Shown here: in pieces, positions 4,741 to 15,520 of the stretch | How positions within the stretch are numbered: the stretch's first letter is position 1 | How the letters are laid out: every line of letters begins with the position of its first letter | Assembly: GCA_016214055.1 (NCBI GenBank) | Contig: JACRPE010000017.1 | Span: 1-58,471, forward strand | Length of the DNA: 58,471 bases | Direction of reading: 5' to 3' | Source: Candidatus Roizmanbacteria bacterium | GTDB taxonomy: Bacteria > Patescibacteriota > Microgenomatia > UBA1406 > GWC2-37-13 | Position numbers and translations under genes: made by a program | The notes under the pieces: generated by a model | What the model was told of the DNA's origin: nothing | Databases searched by the model: none | Seen by the model: the letters and a program-made list of their open reading frames with translations, nothing else

Positions 4741-5241
4741 TCAGACAACCACTTCATTTGTGTTATATGTGCGGGCAAACATGAAGAGAAGGTCGGAAAG
4801 GCGATTGAGGTAACGGATGACGATTTTCAATGCATTATCATACCGGACAACACTCCGTTCTGCGCGGCGGCATATCGTGCGGGCAATATGAGCATGTACC
4901 GAAAGCTCAGTTCCTTGAGGAAGAATAAATTGAGTTAATTTGGGAAGTTTTAATTCAAGAGTGTCGATGATTTTTTCAAACTTAATAATTTCTTTTGCCA
5001 GATAATCAAGATTTATTTTTGCCCCCGCCAAATATCCCATCATTTGATAAAGATCTTTTTGGATAAAAGTAAACAGTTCTTTATCGTCTTTATTTTTAGT
5101 CTTTGAAATGAGAAGTCCAAGATATGCGGATAGTTCATCAAGTCCTCCGTAAGCCTCAATCTGTAGGTCTGATTTGAGAAGGCGCTTGCCCCCGAATAGG
5201 GCAGTTGTTCCGTCATCGCCGGTACGGGTATAGATACTCAT
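4741..5241 (-). CDS. ATP:cob(I)alamin adenosyltransferase, PduO type
   Basis: Converts cob(I)alamin and ATP to adenosylcobalamin. The 166-residue protein opens with MSIYTRTGDDGTTALFGG, the N-terminal ATP-binding signature of the PduO/MMAB family, followed by the VDELSAYLG-like GGLDELSAYLG segment and, near the C-terminus, the RTICRRAERSVV and YLNRLSDLLF helices. I use the ATG at 5241 because this matches the family start and lies one base after the nrdJ stop codon. Its partner is clear: NrdJ needs adenosylcobalamin as cofactor. No corrin biosynthesis genes are visible, so the corrinoid is presumably taken up. Confidence 0.92.
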   Translation of the reverse strand: MSIYTRTGDDGTTALFGGKRLLKSDLQIEAYGGLDELSAYLGLLISKTKNKDDKELFTFIQKDLYQMMGYLAGAKINLDYLAKEIIKFEKIIDTLELKLPKLTQFILPQGTELSVHAHIARTICRRAERSVVRYDNALKIVIRYLNRLSDLLFMFARTYNTNEVVV

Positions 5242-5242
5242 A

Positions 5243-7603
5243 TTAACACTCAGAATATCCACATCCATAACACTTCTTACACCCCTCCTCATGAGCTAAA
5301 AGAGCTTCTCCACAAGATGGACAGAGATCATAAAGTCCTTTATCTGGCGGTTGTTGGATAAGGGAAGCTTGGGTTGCCTCAGAGACAAGTGTGGGTTGTG
5401 GAACAACCTCATCTTTGTGATCGTGACCGGGTGCGTCCAGGTTATAATGCATGGAAAGAACCTTCGCAACTGCGTCAGGCAAACTTCTCACTTTATCCTT
5501 TCCAAATCCCATAGTGCGAGCTCCACCAATTCCTTGGAGTTGATTAACAATTTGTTTTATTCTTTCAAGTGCTGGCAAATGCGATGCAAACCGAAGAGCG
5601 AGAGATATGGTTCTACCCAATCCTTCAGCCATTGCCGAAACATCGGATCCGGGTTTACTGATGTTTATGAAAACCTCAAGTGGTTCGGGAGGGGAGCCTC
5701 CGTTAGTGTTAATGGTTATAAACGCTACTCCAACGGGGGTGTTTATACGATATGTTGCCCCCCGTACAACCATAGGACGCGGCTTGACACTATACTGGGG
5801 AAGTGTAGACTTTTTTTCCTCTTCCTTCTTCTCAACGCGCTCCAAGACTCCCGCGCGGGATCCTTCTCTCATGTAGGCAATTCCCTTCAATCCTTGTTTA
5901 TAAGCAATGTTATAGAGACGCTTTACATCTTCAACGGTATGAGTCTTGGGGGCATTTACTGTCTTTGAAATTGACGCATCAACATATTTTTGAATAACTG
6001 CTTGCACTTGCACATGTTCCTCTGGAGAAAGCTCACTTGCAGAGACAAACCATTCCGGTCTTTTTATTTTTCCATCCTTCATCTCTTTTTCGTGTTTTTT
6101 ATACCAAGCCTCATACAGGTGGTGGCGCATAACCCGCTCACCCAATCGATCTTTGCGCACAAATTCAAACTCAAAGACCGGCTCAATACCTGAGGTAGTA
6201 TTGGCCATGAGCGATGTTGATCCGGTAGGTGCCTGCATGAGAAGGATGGAGTTGCGGATGCCTTTTTGGGCAATTCCTTTTTGTATTTCATCGGGCAACT
6301 GTTCGATAAATTTACCCTTACCATATTTTTCCTTATCAAATTTGGGGAAAGCTCCTTTTTCTTTAGAGATCTCAACGGAAGTTTGGTAAGCCTCATCGCG
6401 AATTAATTTATACACTTTATTGATAAAAATGAGTGACTCTTTTGATCCATAGCGCATATGAAGCTTAATAAGAGCATCTCCAAGCCCCATGGTTCCCAAT
6501 CCGATGCGGCGTTCGCCTTCAAGTTGTGTCTGGCGAATTCCTTCAAAAAAATACTGGTCCATGTCGATTATATTATCTTGAAAACGGACACCGGCTCGTA
6601 CAACTCTTTTAAGGGTGCTAAAATCAAACTTGCCTTTTTTATCAATACTGCCACCTTTGATTAATGCGGAAAGATTTACGGACCCAAGGTTACACACACC
6701 CCAAGGAGGAAGACCTTCCTCACCACAAGGATTCACACAATTTATTCGGTTCCAATACCAATTATTATTCATTTTGTTATATCGCTCCATGAATACAACA
6801 CCGGGTTCGGCTGATTTCCACGCGGCCTCCGCGATCAAATCCCAGATTTTTCTGGCTTTTACCACTTTGCGGACGATGATTTTTTTATTCAATTTCTTCC
6901 ACTCTTCCAAATCCCCATTCCATTTCTCATCATACTCAGGATCATTCGTGTCGGGGAATACCAAAGGCCAATCAGCATCTTTTTCAACCGCGTCCATGAA
7001 AGAGTCAGAGATACAGAGGGAAAGGTTTGCCCCGTTTATACGAAGCAGATCCTGTTTTACAGTAATAAATTCTTCAATGTCAGGATGCCAATCCCACAAC
7101 ATCAACATAAGAGCACCACGACGAGTGCCCCCCTGCTGGATGATATCTTTTGTTGCGACAGAAAAAAGCTCAGCCCAGTTGATGGGGCCTGAGGAGAATC
7201 CGTTTACTTTTTTGACGCGGGATCCACGCGGTCGGAGTGAAGAAAGGTTTATGCCGACTCCACCGCCCCGAGCCATAATTTCGACCATCCGTTTCAAGGT
7301 ATCCAAAATGCCTCCCCGCGAATCTTTAGGGCTTGGAATCACGAAACAATTATAGAACGTGACATCAAATCCGGTTCCGGCGCCAGCCAATATGCGGCCA
7401 CCGGGAATATATTTAAAATCCTTCATCGCTTCATAAAATTCTTTTTCCCATTTTTTCCCATCCTCTTTTTTTTCTTGGGATGCGACCGCCTTCGCAATCC
7501 GCTTCCACATCTGACCGGGATCTTTCTCAATAGGGGCACCTTTTTTATCCTTTAATGCGTAGCGGTCCAGAAAGACCTTTTGAGAAAAACCAGTGAGTTT
7601 CAT
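5243..7603 (-). CDS. nrdJ: Adenosylcobalamin-dependent (class II) ribonucleotide reductase
   Basis: Reduces ribonucleotides to deoxyribonucleotides using a radical generated from adenosylcobalamin, oxygen-independently. The 786-residue protein shows the first redox Cys (C86 in FYNCFVIP), the GGGVGIN loop, NPCGE (residues 291-295) and CNLGS (304-308), and a C-terminal Cys-rich tail (CPSCG ... CYGCGYSEC), which in this family passes electrons to the active site. It lies in an operon between nrdR (six-base gap) and the cobalamin adenosyltransferase (one-base gap). No class I or III reductase is present in the window. Long antisense frames over this gene are shadows. Confidence 0.96.
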   Translation of the reverse strand: MKLTGFSQKVFLDRYALKDKKGAPIEKDPGQMWKRIAKAVASQEKKEDGKKWEKEFYEAMKDFKYIPGGRILAGAGTGFDVTFYNCFVIPSPKDSRGGILDTLKRMVEIMARGGGVGINLSSLRPRGSRVKKVNGFSSGPINWAELFSVATKDIIQQGGTRRGALMLMLWDWHPDIEEFITVKQDLLRINGANLSLCISDSFMDAVEKDADWPLVFPDTNDPEYDEKWNGDLEEWKKLNKKIIVRKVVKARKIWDLIAEAAWKSAEPGVVFMERYNKMNNNWYWNRINCVNPCGEEGLPPWGVCNLGSVNLSALIKGGSIDKKGKFDFSTLKRVVRAGVRFQDNIIDMDQYFFEGIRQTQLEGERRIGLGTMGLGDALIKLHMRYGSKESLIFINKVYKLIRDEAYQTSVEISKEKGAFPKFDKEKYGKGKFIEQLPDEIQKGIAQKGIRNSILLMQAPTGSTSLMANTTSGIEPVFEFEFVRKDRLGERVMRHHLYEAWYKKHEKEMKDGKIKRPEWFVSASELSPEEHVQVQAVIQKYVDASISKTVNAPKTHTVEDVKRLYNIAYKQGLKGIAYMREGSRAGVLERVEKKEEEKKSTLPQYSVKPRPMVVRGATYRINTPVGVAFITINTNGGSPPEPLEVFINISKPGSDVSAMAEGLGRTISLALRFASHLPALERIKQIVNQLQGIGGARTMGFGKDKVRSLPDAVAKVLSMHYNLDAPGHDHKDEVVPQPTLVSEATQASLIQQPPDKGLYDLCPSCGEALLAHEEGCKKCYGCGYSEC

Positions 7604-7609
7604 ATTTCT

Positions 7610-8056
7610 CTATAATAATTTTTTAACTTCCTTCTCAACATCGTCAATATCTACAAACCGTTTGAATACCGACGCAAACCGAATGTACGCAATTTTATCA
7701 AGAACTTTCAATTTTTTTGCAACCCATTTTCCAATCTGGTTGCTTTCTACCTCGGACGTGCCTAAATTTTTCAATTCCTGCTCAACCGTGAGGACCGTTT
7801 CTTCTATTTGCTGGGCCGTTAATGCCGTTTTTTCACATGCTTTAAAAAGCCCCCTCCTCAACTTATCCCGGTCAAACCGTTCACGTCGACCATCCCGCTT
7901 GACTACTAAAATAGGTAAATCCTCTAACCGCTCGTAGGTGGTGAAGCGCTTTTCACATTTGGGACAGCTTCTCCGCCTCCGAACCGTTGTTCCATCCTCC
8001 GATAACCTCGTCTCAATTACTTCTGTATCCGTGTGTTTACAAAATATACAAAACAT
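7610..8056 (-). CDS. nrdR: NrdR transcriptional repressor of ribonucleotide reductase
   Basis: A standard-length (148 residues) NrdR. The N-terminal zinc ribbon has Cys at 3, 6, 31 and 34 with the RRRRSCPKC segment, followed by an ATP-cone domain (about residues 46-136) starting LPILVVKRDGRRERFD that senses ATP/dATP. NrdR represses reductase operons when dATP is high. It is the first gene of the nrdR-nrdJ-adenosyltransferase operon. A palindrome overlapping its own start codon (8049-8066) is a candidate NrdR box and would make the operon autoregulated. Confidence 0.96.
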   Translation of the reverse strand: MFCIFCKHTDTEVIETRLSEDGTTVRRRRSCPKCEKRFTTYERLEDLPILVVKRDGRRERFDRDKLRRGLFKACEKTALTAQQIEETVLTVEQELKNLGTSEVESNQIGKWVAKKLKVLDKIAYIRFASVFKRFVDIDDVEKEVKKLL

Positions 8057-8224: not shown

Positions 8225-8322
8225 CAAATACCAAATGACAAAGACTCAAATGCACAAATCAAGTTTAAATTACAAACATAAAATCTCTTTATGAATTTGT
8301 GGTTAATTGTGCTATTTGTGCT
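8225..8322. repeat. A+T-rich imperfect inverted repeat
   Basis: The left arm is built of AAATGACAAA/CACAAAT-like units (8225-8276) and the right arm carries their complements (ATTTGTGG, ATTTGTGC, 8294-8322). It could fold into an imperfect hairpin. The composition differs from coding DNA nearby and it ends just at the promoter of the HARP gene. A second element of this style is at 36640-36787. Confidence 0.5.
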
Positions 8323-8327
8323 ATTAT
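8322..8327 (+). promoter_or_regulatory. -10 box of the HARP gene
   Basis: TATTAT ends six bases before the ATG at 8334, which favours this start over the in-frame ATG at 8307. Confidence 0.45.
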
Positions 8328-8333
8328 ATAGAC

Positions 8334-8957
8334 ATGGACTCATATATTTTAGACACGAACCTTTTTTTCAATATGGAGGAAGGTTTGAATTTAGGAGATA
8401 AGACGGATGCGGTGGTCATCTTCCTCACAAAGAAGGCAAAAGAGTTAAAAAAAAGTGGACAGGCGCAATTTTATATGACTCCGCGGATAGTTGAGGAATT
8501 CCTCAGTTTTTTTGAAAACAAAGAGCAACCTTTTCTCAAAGATTTTTTAAGCGGTATAATCATCCAGTCTCCCAACGTCGGATCTCTTTCCTTCTCAGCC
8601 CAAATTTTTTATCAGCTGGTAGATGATATCCGAGCACGGAGCTATCGGGGGCTTCGGGTAGGTGAGGAAGAAATACAAAAAGCAGGACATCTCATGCAGG
8701 GTAAGACCGACCTTTCCAAAAAAGATTTTGAAATTTCCATAGGCGAAGTGGTAAAAAAATTCCGCGACCGCTATCGGCAAGCTACCCGGTTTGGGTTTTT
8801 GGACAGCCTCGCAGACCTTGACATCATCATGCTTTCCCAAGAGTTGGGGGGAACACTTGTGTCCACCGATGAAGGGGTATTACATTGGGGAAGGATATTT
8901 GGAGTTAAAGAGATGCCGGCATCTGTTTTTGGACAACTTCTTCGTCGTCCGGAATAA
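8334..8957 (+). CDS. Protein-only RNase P, HARP type (PIN-domain nuclease)
   Basis: A 207-residue protein matching the 'RNA ligase partner'/UPF0278 family, to which Aquifex Aq_880 belongs; that protein is an RNA-free RNase P that matures tRNA 5' ends. It begins with YILDTN, followed by a helical middle (IFYQLVDDIRARSYRGLRV) and LDSLADLDIIMLSQELGG then STDEG. The acidic residues D7, D157, D161 and D179 have the same spacing (4 and 22) as I recall for the catalytic aspartates of Aq_880. I recognise it from motifs, not from a search. The ATG at 8334 fits the family start and a TATTAT box six bases upstream. Its end overlaps the next gene by 53 bases, convergent. Confidence 0.85.
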   Translation: MDSYILDTNLFFNMEEGLNLGDKTDAVVIFLTKKAKELKKSGQAQFYMTPRIVEEFLSFFENKEQPFLKDFLSGIIIQSPNVGSLSFSAQIFYQLVDDIRARSYRGLRVGEEEIQKAGHLMQGKTDLSKKDFEISIGEVVKKFRDRYRQATRFGFLDSLADLDIIMLSQELGGTLVSTDEGVLHWGRIFGVKEMPASVFGQLLRRPE

Positions 8958-9889: not shown

Positions 9890-10537
9890 CTACGGAGTCG
9901 GAGCGGCTGTCTGACCTGAAAAACCCGGCAATCTCAAAATACCCGACCCGATAAGATTTATAATAAAGACCGACCCCAACGTGAAGATGAGACCGATTAT
10001 TGCCCCCATTATCACTCTTTTTCCCTGATTTAGACGCTCGGCCTCACCCTGCGAAGAAAGCAGTAAGAAAGCCCCATACATAAGATAGAGAAAGGCAATC
10101 CCCCCCGTTATACGGAATACCAAAAGATCAAAAAGTGCCTGCACAAAACTGGACGCGCCCGTATTTTTATCGTTCTGAAACCCCCCCGTTGAGGTTAAGC
10201 ATCCGATCATGGTAAATTGACGACCCACATAGGGAGTCGGCGGAAGAAGGGTAGTGGGAACAATCCGCACCGTATCACAAAGAGTCGCATCCGGCACGGT
10301 ACCCGTGGGGTAAAGACTGGGATATAAACACCTTACACACGAGGTCCAATTACCGGGGACGGGACCAAAGGTGGGGTCAGGACTGCAGGCGGCACTTGCC
10401 CCGTTTATTATCACCGGACAGAATCCGCATGCGTCACAGGTGACATAATTTGCGGCGGCTGAGACAGGGGCAAAATGAGGAGAAAGAGTAACAAAAGCCA
10501 GCAACAAAAATAATCCTAAGAAAAAGAAGCGTCTCAT
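9890..10537 (-). CDS. VirB2/TrbC-like pilin protein with Cys-rich N-terminal region
   Basis: 215 residues: a signal peptide (about 1-28), a Cys-rich segment (YVTCDACGFCPVII ... CVRCLYP) and at the C-terminus two membrane helices separated by a short polar turn (LLLSSQGEAERLNQGKRVIMGAIIG), the typical topology of VirB2/TrbC pilins. CPR genomes often carry such proteins together with VirB4 and VirB6 homologues. Here the VirB6-like gene (30604-33174) and the VirB4 block (35797-39174) are about 20 kb away. It may form part of a DNA uptake or pilus machine; that is inference. Confidence 0.7.
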   Translation of the reverse strand: MRRFFFLGLFLLLAFVTLSPHFAPVSAAANYVTCDACGFCPVIINGASAACSPDPTFGPVPGNWTSCVRCLYPSLYPTGTVPDATLCDTVRIVPTTLLPPTPYVGRQFTMIGCLTSTGGFQNDKNTGASSFVQALFDLLVFRITGGIAFLYLMYGAFLLLSSQGEAERLNQGKRVIMGAIIGLIFTLGSVFIINLIGSGILRLPGFSGQTAAPTP

Positions 10538-10610
10538 ATATATTTTCAGTATATACTAAAAAAACCAAGGTTTGTAATTTGTTTTTTCAGTATAAAACAA
10601 AAAATATACG

Positions 10611-10616
10611 TATAAT
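10611..10616 (+). promoter_or_regulatory. -10 box of the SpoIID-domain gene
   Basis: TATAAT ends six bases before the ATG at 10623. The intervening TAAAGG contains a purine run but is too close to serve as a normal ribosome-binding site. Confidence 0.5.
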
Positions 10617-10622
10617 TAAAGG

Positions 10623-12362
10623 ATGAAAAGAGTGTTATTTGTGTTTGCGGTTGTATTGTTTGCCCTCCTTGCAATCAATACGTATGCAGATCAGTATGAT
10701 GATGTCACCAATGAGCTCGAAGGACTAAAGAAAACCTTCAACGATCTTAATAAAGCCAACAACACCAATCAAGCAACTCTGGACGATTTAAACAAGCAGC
10801 TCCAAAGCATCAAGGGAAAAATTCTCTTTTTTGAAAATGAAATAGAAAAAAAACAGGCACAGGTTGTGGAGGGAGAAAAAGTGTTTGAGTATCAAAGAGG
10901 TCTTTTAAATGCGCGGGCAAAATCATATTACAAAAACGCGAGCAAAAACTCCTTTTCCTTTATGCAACTTCTGTTATCAGACAACCTTTCGGTGTCACTC
11001 CAAAATTTCTTTTATCAGAAAACACTCGTTGATGAGGACCGGCGGGCGATTGAAAAAATTGCTCTTTATATAAAGGATATTCAGGATAAAAAAAAGTCAC
11101 TCGAAGGCGAGACCGCCCGGCTTGCCGTCATCAAAGTTGAGGTTGACAAGCAATCGAGCTTCCTCGCGGGGGAAGTTGCCAAGACAAAAAAATATTTAGG
11201 GGAGCTTCAAAGTAAGATCGCGTCCCTGACCGCACAACAGCAGGCAATCATTGCCGCACGTCAGGCGGGGTTAAATCTTCCCCGGTCGGCCGGCACTTCA
11301 CTCGGCGGGTGTGTGGATGACCGGAATGTTGACCCGGGTTTTGGAAATGCCTTTGCGTTTTTCAGCTATGGGTCGGTTCACCGAGTAGGGATGAATCAGT
11401 TCGGCGCATATGGAAGAGCAAAAGCCGGCCAAAATTATGAAACGATTCTAAACGCATACTATAGCAATGTAAAACTGGAATGTAAAAACTTTCCAAATAA
11501 TAAAATAAAAGTGCAGGGTTATTCTGAGGTTGATATTTACGATTATTTAAAAGGTATTGGGGAGATGCCTTCCGGATGGGGAGATAGCGGAGGGTATGAG
11601 GCGTTAAAGGCGCAGGTAGTCGCCGCCGCATCTTTTGCTTATGCATACACAGGTGGCGGAAATAATGAAATATGCACAAATCAGGACTGCCAGGTATATA
11701 CCGGAGGAAATAAAGGAGGAAAATGGGAAGGGGCGGTTAATGATGTAAAAGGAAAGTGCGGAGACAATAATGTACAGGTGATGGTTTCAAATGATACCGG
11801 AGAAGTCATCAAGGCGTGGTATGCATCGACTCACGGAGGGTATGAATGGACATCGGGTGAGATTTGGGGTTCACAAAAACCCTGGACGAAACACATGCAG
11901 GACACCATGTCGAGTGCGAACAGTTTCTCGGAACTCAATGACCGCGCATGGGATCGCGAGTCACCGTGGTTTTATTGTGATTGGGGAGCGCGTGCCGATC
12001 ATAATAAAACCGCTTGGTTGAAGGGCGACGAGGTTGCGGACATTGTGAACGTGATTCTTTTGGTACGCGCGGATTCATCCACATCATCACACGTTGGTCA
12101 ACCGGATAAACCGACCGGCGACACGTGGAATCAAGATAAAGTTAAGTCGGAGTTAAAAGGCAGGGGAACAACACCTTTTAACTCAATTTCTTCCATATCA
12201 ATTAACGCGGATATTGGTTACGGAAAGACAAATGGGGTCACCGTACAGGGAGATGCCGGATCTCAATCATTTGATGGAAAAGAATTCAAGGACTTCTTTA
12301 ATGTGAGAGCACCTGCCAACATACAGATTGTAAGCCAACTTTATAATGTAGAAAGAAAGTAA
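10623..12362 (+). CDS. Secreted coiled-coil protein with SpoIID/LytB domain
   Basis: 579 residues. A signal peptide (1-22) is followed by a long coiled coil (about 25-205) like those of CwlO/PcsB-type peptidoglycan hydrolase regulators. The C-terminal half is a SpoIID (amidase-enhancer) domain: HRVGMNQFGAYGRAKAG at about residue 252, YLKGIGEMP, EALKAQVVAAASFAYAY, and STHGGYEWTSGE. SpoIID proteins act on peptidoglycan as lytic transglycosylases or amidase activators, so a role in cell-wall remodelling is likely. The combination of both modules in one secreted protein is typical of some CPR bacteria. Its 3' end overlaps the acyltransferase gene by 22 bases, convergent. Confidence 0.85.
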   Translation: MKRVLFVFAVVLFALLAINTYADQYDDVTNELEGLKKTFNDLNKANNTNQATLDDLNKQLQSIKGKILFFENEIEKKQAQVVEGEKVFEYQRGLLNARAKSYYKNASKNSFSFMQLLLSDNLSVSLQNFFYQKTLVDEDRRAIEKIALYIKDIQDKKKSLEGETARLAVIKVEVDKQSSFLAGEVAKTKKYLGELQSKIASLTAQQQAIIAARQAGLNLPRSAGTSLGGCVDDRNVDPGFGNAFAFFSYGSVHRVGMNQFGAYGRAKAGQNYETILNAYYSNVKLECKNFPNNKIKVQGYSEVDIYDYLKGIGEMPSGWGDSGGYEALKAQVVAAASFAYAYTGGGNNEICTNQDCQVYTGGNKGGKWEGAVNDVKGKCGDNNVQVMVSNDTGEVIKAWYASTHGGYEWTSGEIWGSQKPWTKHMQDTMSSANSFSELNDRAWDRESPWFYCDWGARADHNKTAWLKGDEVADIVNVILLVRADSSTSSHVGQPDKPTGDTWNQDKVKSELKGRGTTPFNSISSISINADIGYGKTNGVTVQGDAGSQSFDGKEFKDFFNVRAPANIQIVSQLYNVERK

Positions 12363-15053: not shown

Positions 15054-15080
15054 GACCACTTTCTGTGGTCCTTTTTTTTT
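15054..15080. terminator. Bidirectional intrinsic terminator
   Basis: GACCAC (15054-15059) pairs with GTGGTC (15065-15070), flanked by a run of A on the left and ten pyrimidines, nine of them T, on the right. It can end the IDI-like transcript on the plus strand and the tmRNA transcript on the minus strand. Confidence 0.85.
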
Positions 15081-15520
15081 GGTGGAGATGCCGGGAATTG
15101 GACCCGGGTCCGGGGAAACACCCGTACAAACGTTTAGCGAGGGATAAAGTATCTTTACTCTAATCCGAGACGTAGATACATAGACGTTTTCGGATAGTCA
15201 GTTTAAGGGTTTATTCGAACTCCCCGGCTGACTGAAAAAACCGGTTCGCTCTATCTCGATTGGTTAATCTCCTGATCCTTATTGAACCGAGAAAAATAAG
15301 GCAAGAGGTTTCCCTTCAAGAGGGTTTTTAGAACTTAGACAGTTCTAAATGCAAGAGACATATTTTGGTTTCTAAGGCCAAGCATGTCAGCTGCAAGTTC
15401 TTGAAGAGGAGCAACGGCTTCACTAAAAGTGGTAGCTGTTATTGTTTTTTCTATTTGACGCATAGATACGCCCACGCCGTTTGTAAAAGTGCAAATTCCT
15501 CGTCGATGCCTTGCATCCCC
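15080..15520 (-). ncRNA. ssrA: tmRNA (transfer-messenger RNA)
   Basis: The 5' end GGGGATGC (minus strand, from 15520) pairs with the 3' acceptor strand GCATCTCC, which is followed by ACCA; the T-arm reads GGGTCCAATTCCC. The 5' region contains the CATCGACGAGG segment equivalent to the conserved GATTCGACGG. A tag frame can be read from a GCT resume codon at 15436 to a TAA at 15335-15337, 33 codons, beginning ATTFSEAV and ending SLAFRTV. The stop codon sits in the loop of a hairpin (TTTAGAAC/GTTCTAAA), as in other tmRNAs. The tag is about three times the usual length and lacks the ALAA-type end. smpB lies just upstream in the same direction. Confidence 0.9.

Follow-up and report, generated by a model that had tools for sequence, protein, structure and literature searches.

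Textbooks present RNase P as a ribozyme that is nearly universal. The window analysed here, a stretch of 58,471 nucleotides from Candidatus Roizmanbacteria (Microgenomatia, CPR), carries a gene which a sequence-only reading had assigned to the family of protein-only RNase P (HARP), and this raises the question of whether HARP is the only enzyme of tRNA 5' maturation in the host or a second one beside the ribozyme. From the genome content, we strongly infer that it is the only one. The reading in which the host relies on HARP alone as its RNase P, this protein having replaced the ribonucleoprotein (RNP) in the ancestor of the host's order and, separately, in a second family of the class (f15), has in our estimate a probability of about 0.9. 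It is conceivable that the host has an RNase P of some entirely new type.

In the available part of an earlier survey, the bacteria reported to rely on HARP only are essentially the Aquificaceae, a few Nitrospirae, and unclassified bacteria which are not named there (PMC6380272); it is possible that the present host group was partly noticed among the latter. Bacterial HARP (178 instances) has been described as highly restricted, mostly to extreme environments, and as linked to an RNA ligase (PMC12153264), and CPR genomes are held to harbour RNase P RNA, which is used as a completeness check (PMC8172020). Among the open-access papers searched, none was found that joins HARP with Roizmanbacteria, Microgenomates or Patescibacteria. 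If the reading proposed here is true, both that completeness check and that description of bacterial HARP need revising. An order which has only HARP would also be a natural test of HARP as a housekeeping enzyme, and its HARPs, which are diverse and number in the dozens, are a resource for structure-function studies.

The HARP gene and its product

The coding sequence (8334-8957, + strand) runs from the ATG at 8334 to a stop codon which ends at 8957, and its product has 207 amino acids. Over its full length it matches TIGR03875 with 145.6 bits (curated cut-off of 95.3), a profile also matched by 22 of 22 relatives, and PF08745 with 138.3 bits (cut-off of 27). In phmmer searches against solved HARPs the E values are as low as 2.5e-25, and the closest solved relatives in the phmmer and profile searches were all deposited as RNA-free RNase P. 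The AlphaFold model (pLDDT of 91) matches the Hydrogenobacter HARP-pre-tRNA complex in Foldseek (8kda_E, E of 3.2e-15, TM of 0.84/0.91) as well as the pre-tRNA complexes of the HARPs from Planctomycetes and Aquifex. Its 34 top matches are HARPs without exception, VapC toxins being far weaker matches (E of about 0.007). Profiles, phmmer and fold all agree that the protein is a genuine HARP, as had been proposed from its resemblance to Aquifex Aq_880.

The four catalytic aspartates, D7 (codon 8352-8354), D157 and D161 (8802-8816, from the first codon to the last) and D179 (8868-8870), all on the + strand, align with D7, D138, D142 and D160 of the Aquifex enzyme (PDB 8kd9) and are invariant across all the HARPs compared (44/44 sequences for D7). 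The sequence-only reading had stated that they are spaced as in Aquifex, which holds for D157, D161 and D179 (4 and 18 residues) and fails for D7-D157, an interval which is 19 residues longer here. About 12 of these extra residues belong to a lineage-specific lengthening of the spike, a pair of helices (residues 89-121 and 129-152 in the model) inserted in the PIN fold. The alignment and the AlphaFold model locate this extension, which is peculiar to the order, at the tip of the helix pair (about residues 116-135; 8679-8738, + strand). The interval R108-R144, equivalent to R116-R138 in the HARP of Planctomycetes bacterium GWF2_40_8 (PbHARP; PDB 7e8o, with pre-tRNA), is 36 residues long in the window HARP and 35-38 in the HARPs of the order, with one exception, compared to 21-26 in canonical HARPs and 21-27 in those of f15.

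R100 (8631-8633, + strand), which aligns with PbHARP R108, an arginine near the scissile phosphate (PMC9051087), is kept in 37/38 HARPs of the order and in all the f15 and canonical ones. R144, R148 and R152 (8763-8789, + strand) align with R138, R142 and R146 of PbHARP and with R125, R129 and R133 of Aq_880, and each is either invariant or present in 37/38 HARPs of the order; mutants of Aq_880 and PbHARP at the equivalent positions have lost their activity or have a strongly reduced one (PMC8266387, PMC9051087). Aq_880 (PDB 7f3e, 8kd9) has in common with the HARPs of the order the PIN_5 fold, the four catalytic aspartates and these three arginines, and PbHARP its catalytic D151, D155 and D173 together with R108, R138, R142 and R146. 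However, the structural alignment with Aq_880 gives an identity of 28-30%, the spike of the order is longer than in either protein (by about 12 residues between the helices relative to Aq_880), and the order has no conserved equivalents of PbHARP R116 and R123. These are two of the four arginines that contact the tRNA elbow, and they hold the T-loop in PbHARP (PMC9051087, PMC8266387). As the residues at the corresponding positions vary within the order, the details of substrate recognition must be different, and the alignment suggests that these HARPs hold the tRNA elbow in a modified way.

By analogy with the solved relatives, the 207-residue protein would act as a homo-oligomeric PIN-domain metallonuclease, with four or more subunits as is typical of HARPs: the spike-helix domain of one dimer would bind the elbow of the pre-tRNA, while D7, D157, D161 and D179 of the neighbouring dimer would hold Mg2+ and cut the 5' leader. 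It would be essential by necessity. Several HARPs assayed elsewhere showed no activity in vitro (PMC10941002, PMC12153264), which counts against the sole-RNase P reading.

rnpB and rnpA in the host lineage

The sequence-only reading had left open whether this lineage has lost rnpB and rnpA, and had proposed to search for both. Neither is found in the genome of the window (1.2 Mb, 26 contigs, 97% complete), where the Rfam class A model of rnpB (RF00010) has no match. With E values up to 10, there is no credible rnpB match in the 72 genomes of the host family, the only four matches having 5.7-11.2 bits compared to a cut-off of 100, and rnpA is above its cut-off in 0/72. The rnpB searches consisted of class A models and motifs only. 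In a sample of 187 genomes of the class, neither gene occurs in any of the 20 that have HARP, and the 167 HARP-lacking genomes have rnpB in 150 cases, rnpA in 152, and at least one of the two in 162. The HARP-lacking genomes with neither gene were inspected one by one: G094 does have rnpA at rpmH, the rnpA of G240 is interrupted by N's, G104 is a member of the HARP family f15 and likewise misses rnpA at rpmH, and G208 and G210 are only 75-83% complete.

HARP might nevertheless coexist with a ribozyme too diverged for these searches. Some CPR rnpB are detected only at very low score thresholds (PMC8172020), and RF00010 misses rnpB in a few genomes of the class which have rnpA, such as G175, G194 and G239 (family f9). 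Because Rfam misses diverged CPR rnpB, a model-free motif test was devised, which uses AGGAAAGTCCRGAC (CR-I) and ACAGAAYCYGGCTTA (CR-V), shared by the rnpB genes of the class, even by the most divergent among them (f5, f9). In f9 (G165, G175, G194, G211, G220, G239), the RF00010 score of rnpB is near or below detection and CR-I and CR-V are intact. Exact CR-V is present in 23/30 HARP-lacking genomes, five of which had been missed by Rfam (G086, G117, G175, G194, G239). An exact CR-I lies upstream in 22 of the 23, at 196-408 nt in 21 of these (G087 is the 22nd); in the remaining genome, G086, the motif is at a contig end. The test thus recovers genes that Rfam misses, yet it is empty in the HARP genomes, where exact CR-V is found in 0/50. 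Thirteen one-mismatch CR-V matches in HARP genomes were rejected, being near background (about 7 in the reversed control) and having no CR-I nearby. Assembly gaps do not account for the absence of rnpB and rnpA, since two genomes with the same pattern, G070 and G014, are single contigs. The loss of rnpA as well, with its locus closed up, and the coincidence of both absences with HARP in two separate lineages also argue against a hidden ribozyme, which appears improbable.

The gene order of HARP-lacking relatives is rpmH-rnpA-yidD-yidC. The loci read in the window's genome and in its order are instead rpmH-yidC-jag, with 8-54 nt from rpmH to yidC (in one genome of family f3, G237, the short rpmH locus contains no yidC), so that yidD was lost along with rnpA. 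Family f15 has retained yidD, and its rpmH-yidD-yidC locus is arranged as described for Aquifex (PMC10941002). The genome of Aquifex aeolicus, like those of the order, is devoid of rnpB and rnpA, and rnpA is missing from its rpmH-yidC region; unlike Aquifex, the order has also lost yidD and is not confined to hyperthermophiles. A gene for DnaA is found beside rpmH in f15 (2/4 genomes read) and in several rnp-bearing families, not in the order.

In a tree of YidC, the order groups with the rnp-bearing families f5 and f9 (100/99) and f15 with the rnp-bearing f10 and f37 (93/87), the two HARP host lineages being separated. This suggests that the ribonucleoprotein RNase P was probably lost twice within the class. 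HARP would have taken over from the rnpB/rnpA enzyme in the ancestor of the Roizmanbacteria order, the RNP being lost afterwards, and the same replacement would have occurred independently in f15. On balance, we favour the broader view that HARP replaced the RNA-based RNase P at least twice in one CPR class, outside hyperthermophiles, to which bacteria with HARP only had been considered mostly limited, and without a ligase, and that the larger lineage has its own grip on the tRNA elbow, with a longer spike and two T-loop arginines lost.

Spread of HARP and its likely substrates

The host was correctly guessed to be a CPR bacterium: its nearest named relatives are Candidatus Roizmanbacteria, and the window HARP is 78% identical to that of RIFOXYA2_FULL_38_14. 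HARP is present in 67/72 genomes of the host family (44/44 of the good ones) and in every member of the order sampled, including both other families sampled. It is above cut-off in 20 of the 187 genomes of the class sample, and in only two of a phylum sample of 380, both from the window's own family. Family f15 also belongs to Microgenomatia and is not a sister of the order. In the HARP tree, which is unrooted, the proteins of the order and of f15 come together, apart from archaeal, Aquificota and proteobacterial HARPs (99/97), so that one acquisition in CPR followed by transfer and two acquisitions are both possible. No HARP was found among phages and viral contigs, the only plasmids with a homologue are four haloarchaeal ones, and no anti-phage defence model gave a match. 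A contig filed as Thermoanaerobaculum aquaticum (DYJZ01000057.1) carries a HARP of the Roizmanbacteria type adjoining dnaA and is probably misbinned.

That the protein could be a PIN toxin of the VapC type, or a specialised RNA nuclease paired with an RNA ligase, is suggested by the place of PIN_5 in the VapC group, by the name of TIGR03875 ("RNA ligase partner") and by the dispensability of archaeal HARPs (PMC12153264, PMC10941002). The archaeal and proteobacterial HARPs with an adjacent ligase (TIGR01209/Rnl3) do belong to the same family, TIGR03875, but their hosts have retained an RNP RNase P and, in most cases, the ligase, and both are absent here: Rnl3 is above cut-off in 0/187 genomes of the class. 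No small antitoxin-like gene is conserved beside HARP (clustered ORFs of at least 90 aa), whose recurrent neighbours are dnaA-dnaN, nrdR and a membrane protein. Unlike toxins, which have a patchy distribution, HARP is fixed in the family; its occurrence is exactly complementary to that of rnpA and rnpB, and VapC toxins are the weak structural matches mentioned above. A role of this kind is very improbable. As a housekeeping RNase P, HARP would carry out the same reaction as the bacterial class A enzyme (rnpB RNA and RnpA), 5' maturation of tRNA, although the two are unrelated and the latter is not detected in the host genome or the order.

The genome of the window has 45 tRNA genes and that of G070 has 44. 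Promoter-like -10 elements end mostly 10-19 nt upstream of the tRNAs, so leaders of several nucleotides are expected. Asp-Val tRNA pairs have spacers of 5-6 nt in the genes read, and tRNA-Arg(CCG) and tRNA-Ala(CGC) abut with CCA alone between them (contig C1 of G070, about 77441-77586), so that a single cut would yield a 3' end and a 5' end at once. Short leaders and tandem spacers have thus been kept, and a 5'-processing enzyme is still needed. Some -10 elements end only 9-11 nt upstream and their leaders are possibly very short, but given the other elements and the tandem pairs it is hardly credible that the tRNAs are transcribed without leaders, as they are in Nanoarchaeum equitans, with no need for RNase P and another role for HARP. 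CCA is encoded by about 6/43 tRNA genes; the Hydrogenobacter HARP has a tenfold preference for CCA-less substrates (PMC10652100). The window also contains a tmRNA gene (15080-15520, - strand; 79.3 bits with Rfam, missed by ARAGORN), another likely substrate of RNase P.

Expression and neighbourhood of the gene

Upstream of the window HARP, a putative -10 element, TATTAT (8322-8327, + strand), extended by a TGn at 8319-8321, ends 6 nt before the ATG. In most of the order's HARP genes, an extended -10 element likewise ends 6-8 nt upstream of the start codon and a Shine-Dalgarno sequence is lacking, so that their mRNAs look leaderless; that of the window HARP is probably leaderless too.

HARP adjoins dnaA-dnaN in 31/60 loci, about 16 of them in the order dnaA-dnaN-HARP with a gap of often a few nucleotides, and nrdR in 23/60, which is the arrangement of the window. 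On the - strand (4741-8056), the genes for a cobalamin adenosyltransferase, an adenosylcobalamin-type ribonucleotide reductase and NrdR are side by side. On the other side of HARP, region 9890-12362 encodes a T4SS-pilin-like protein and a coiled-coil protein with a SpoIID domain, which are both recurrent neighbours of HARP in the order.
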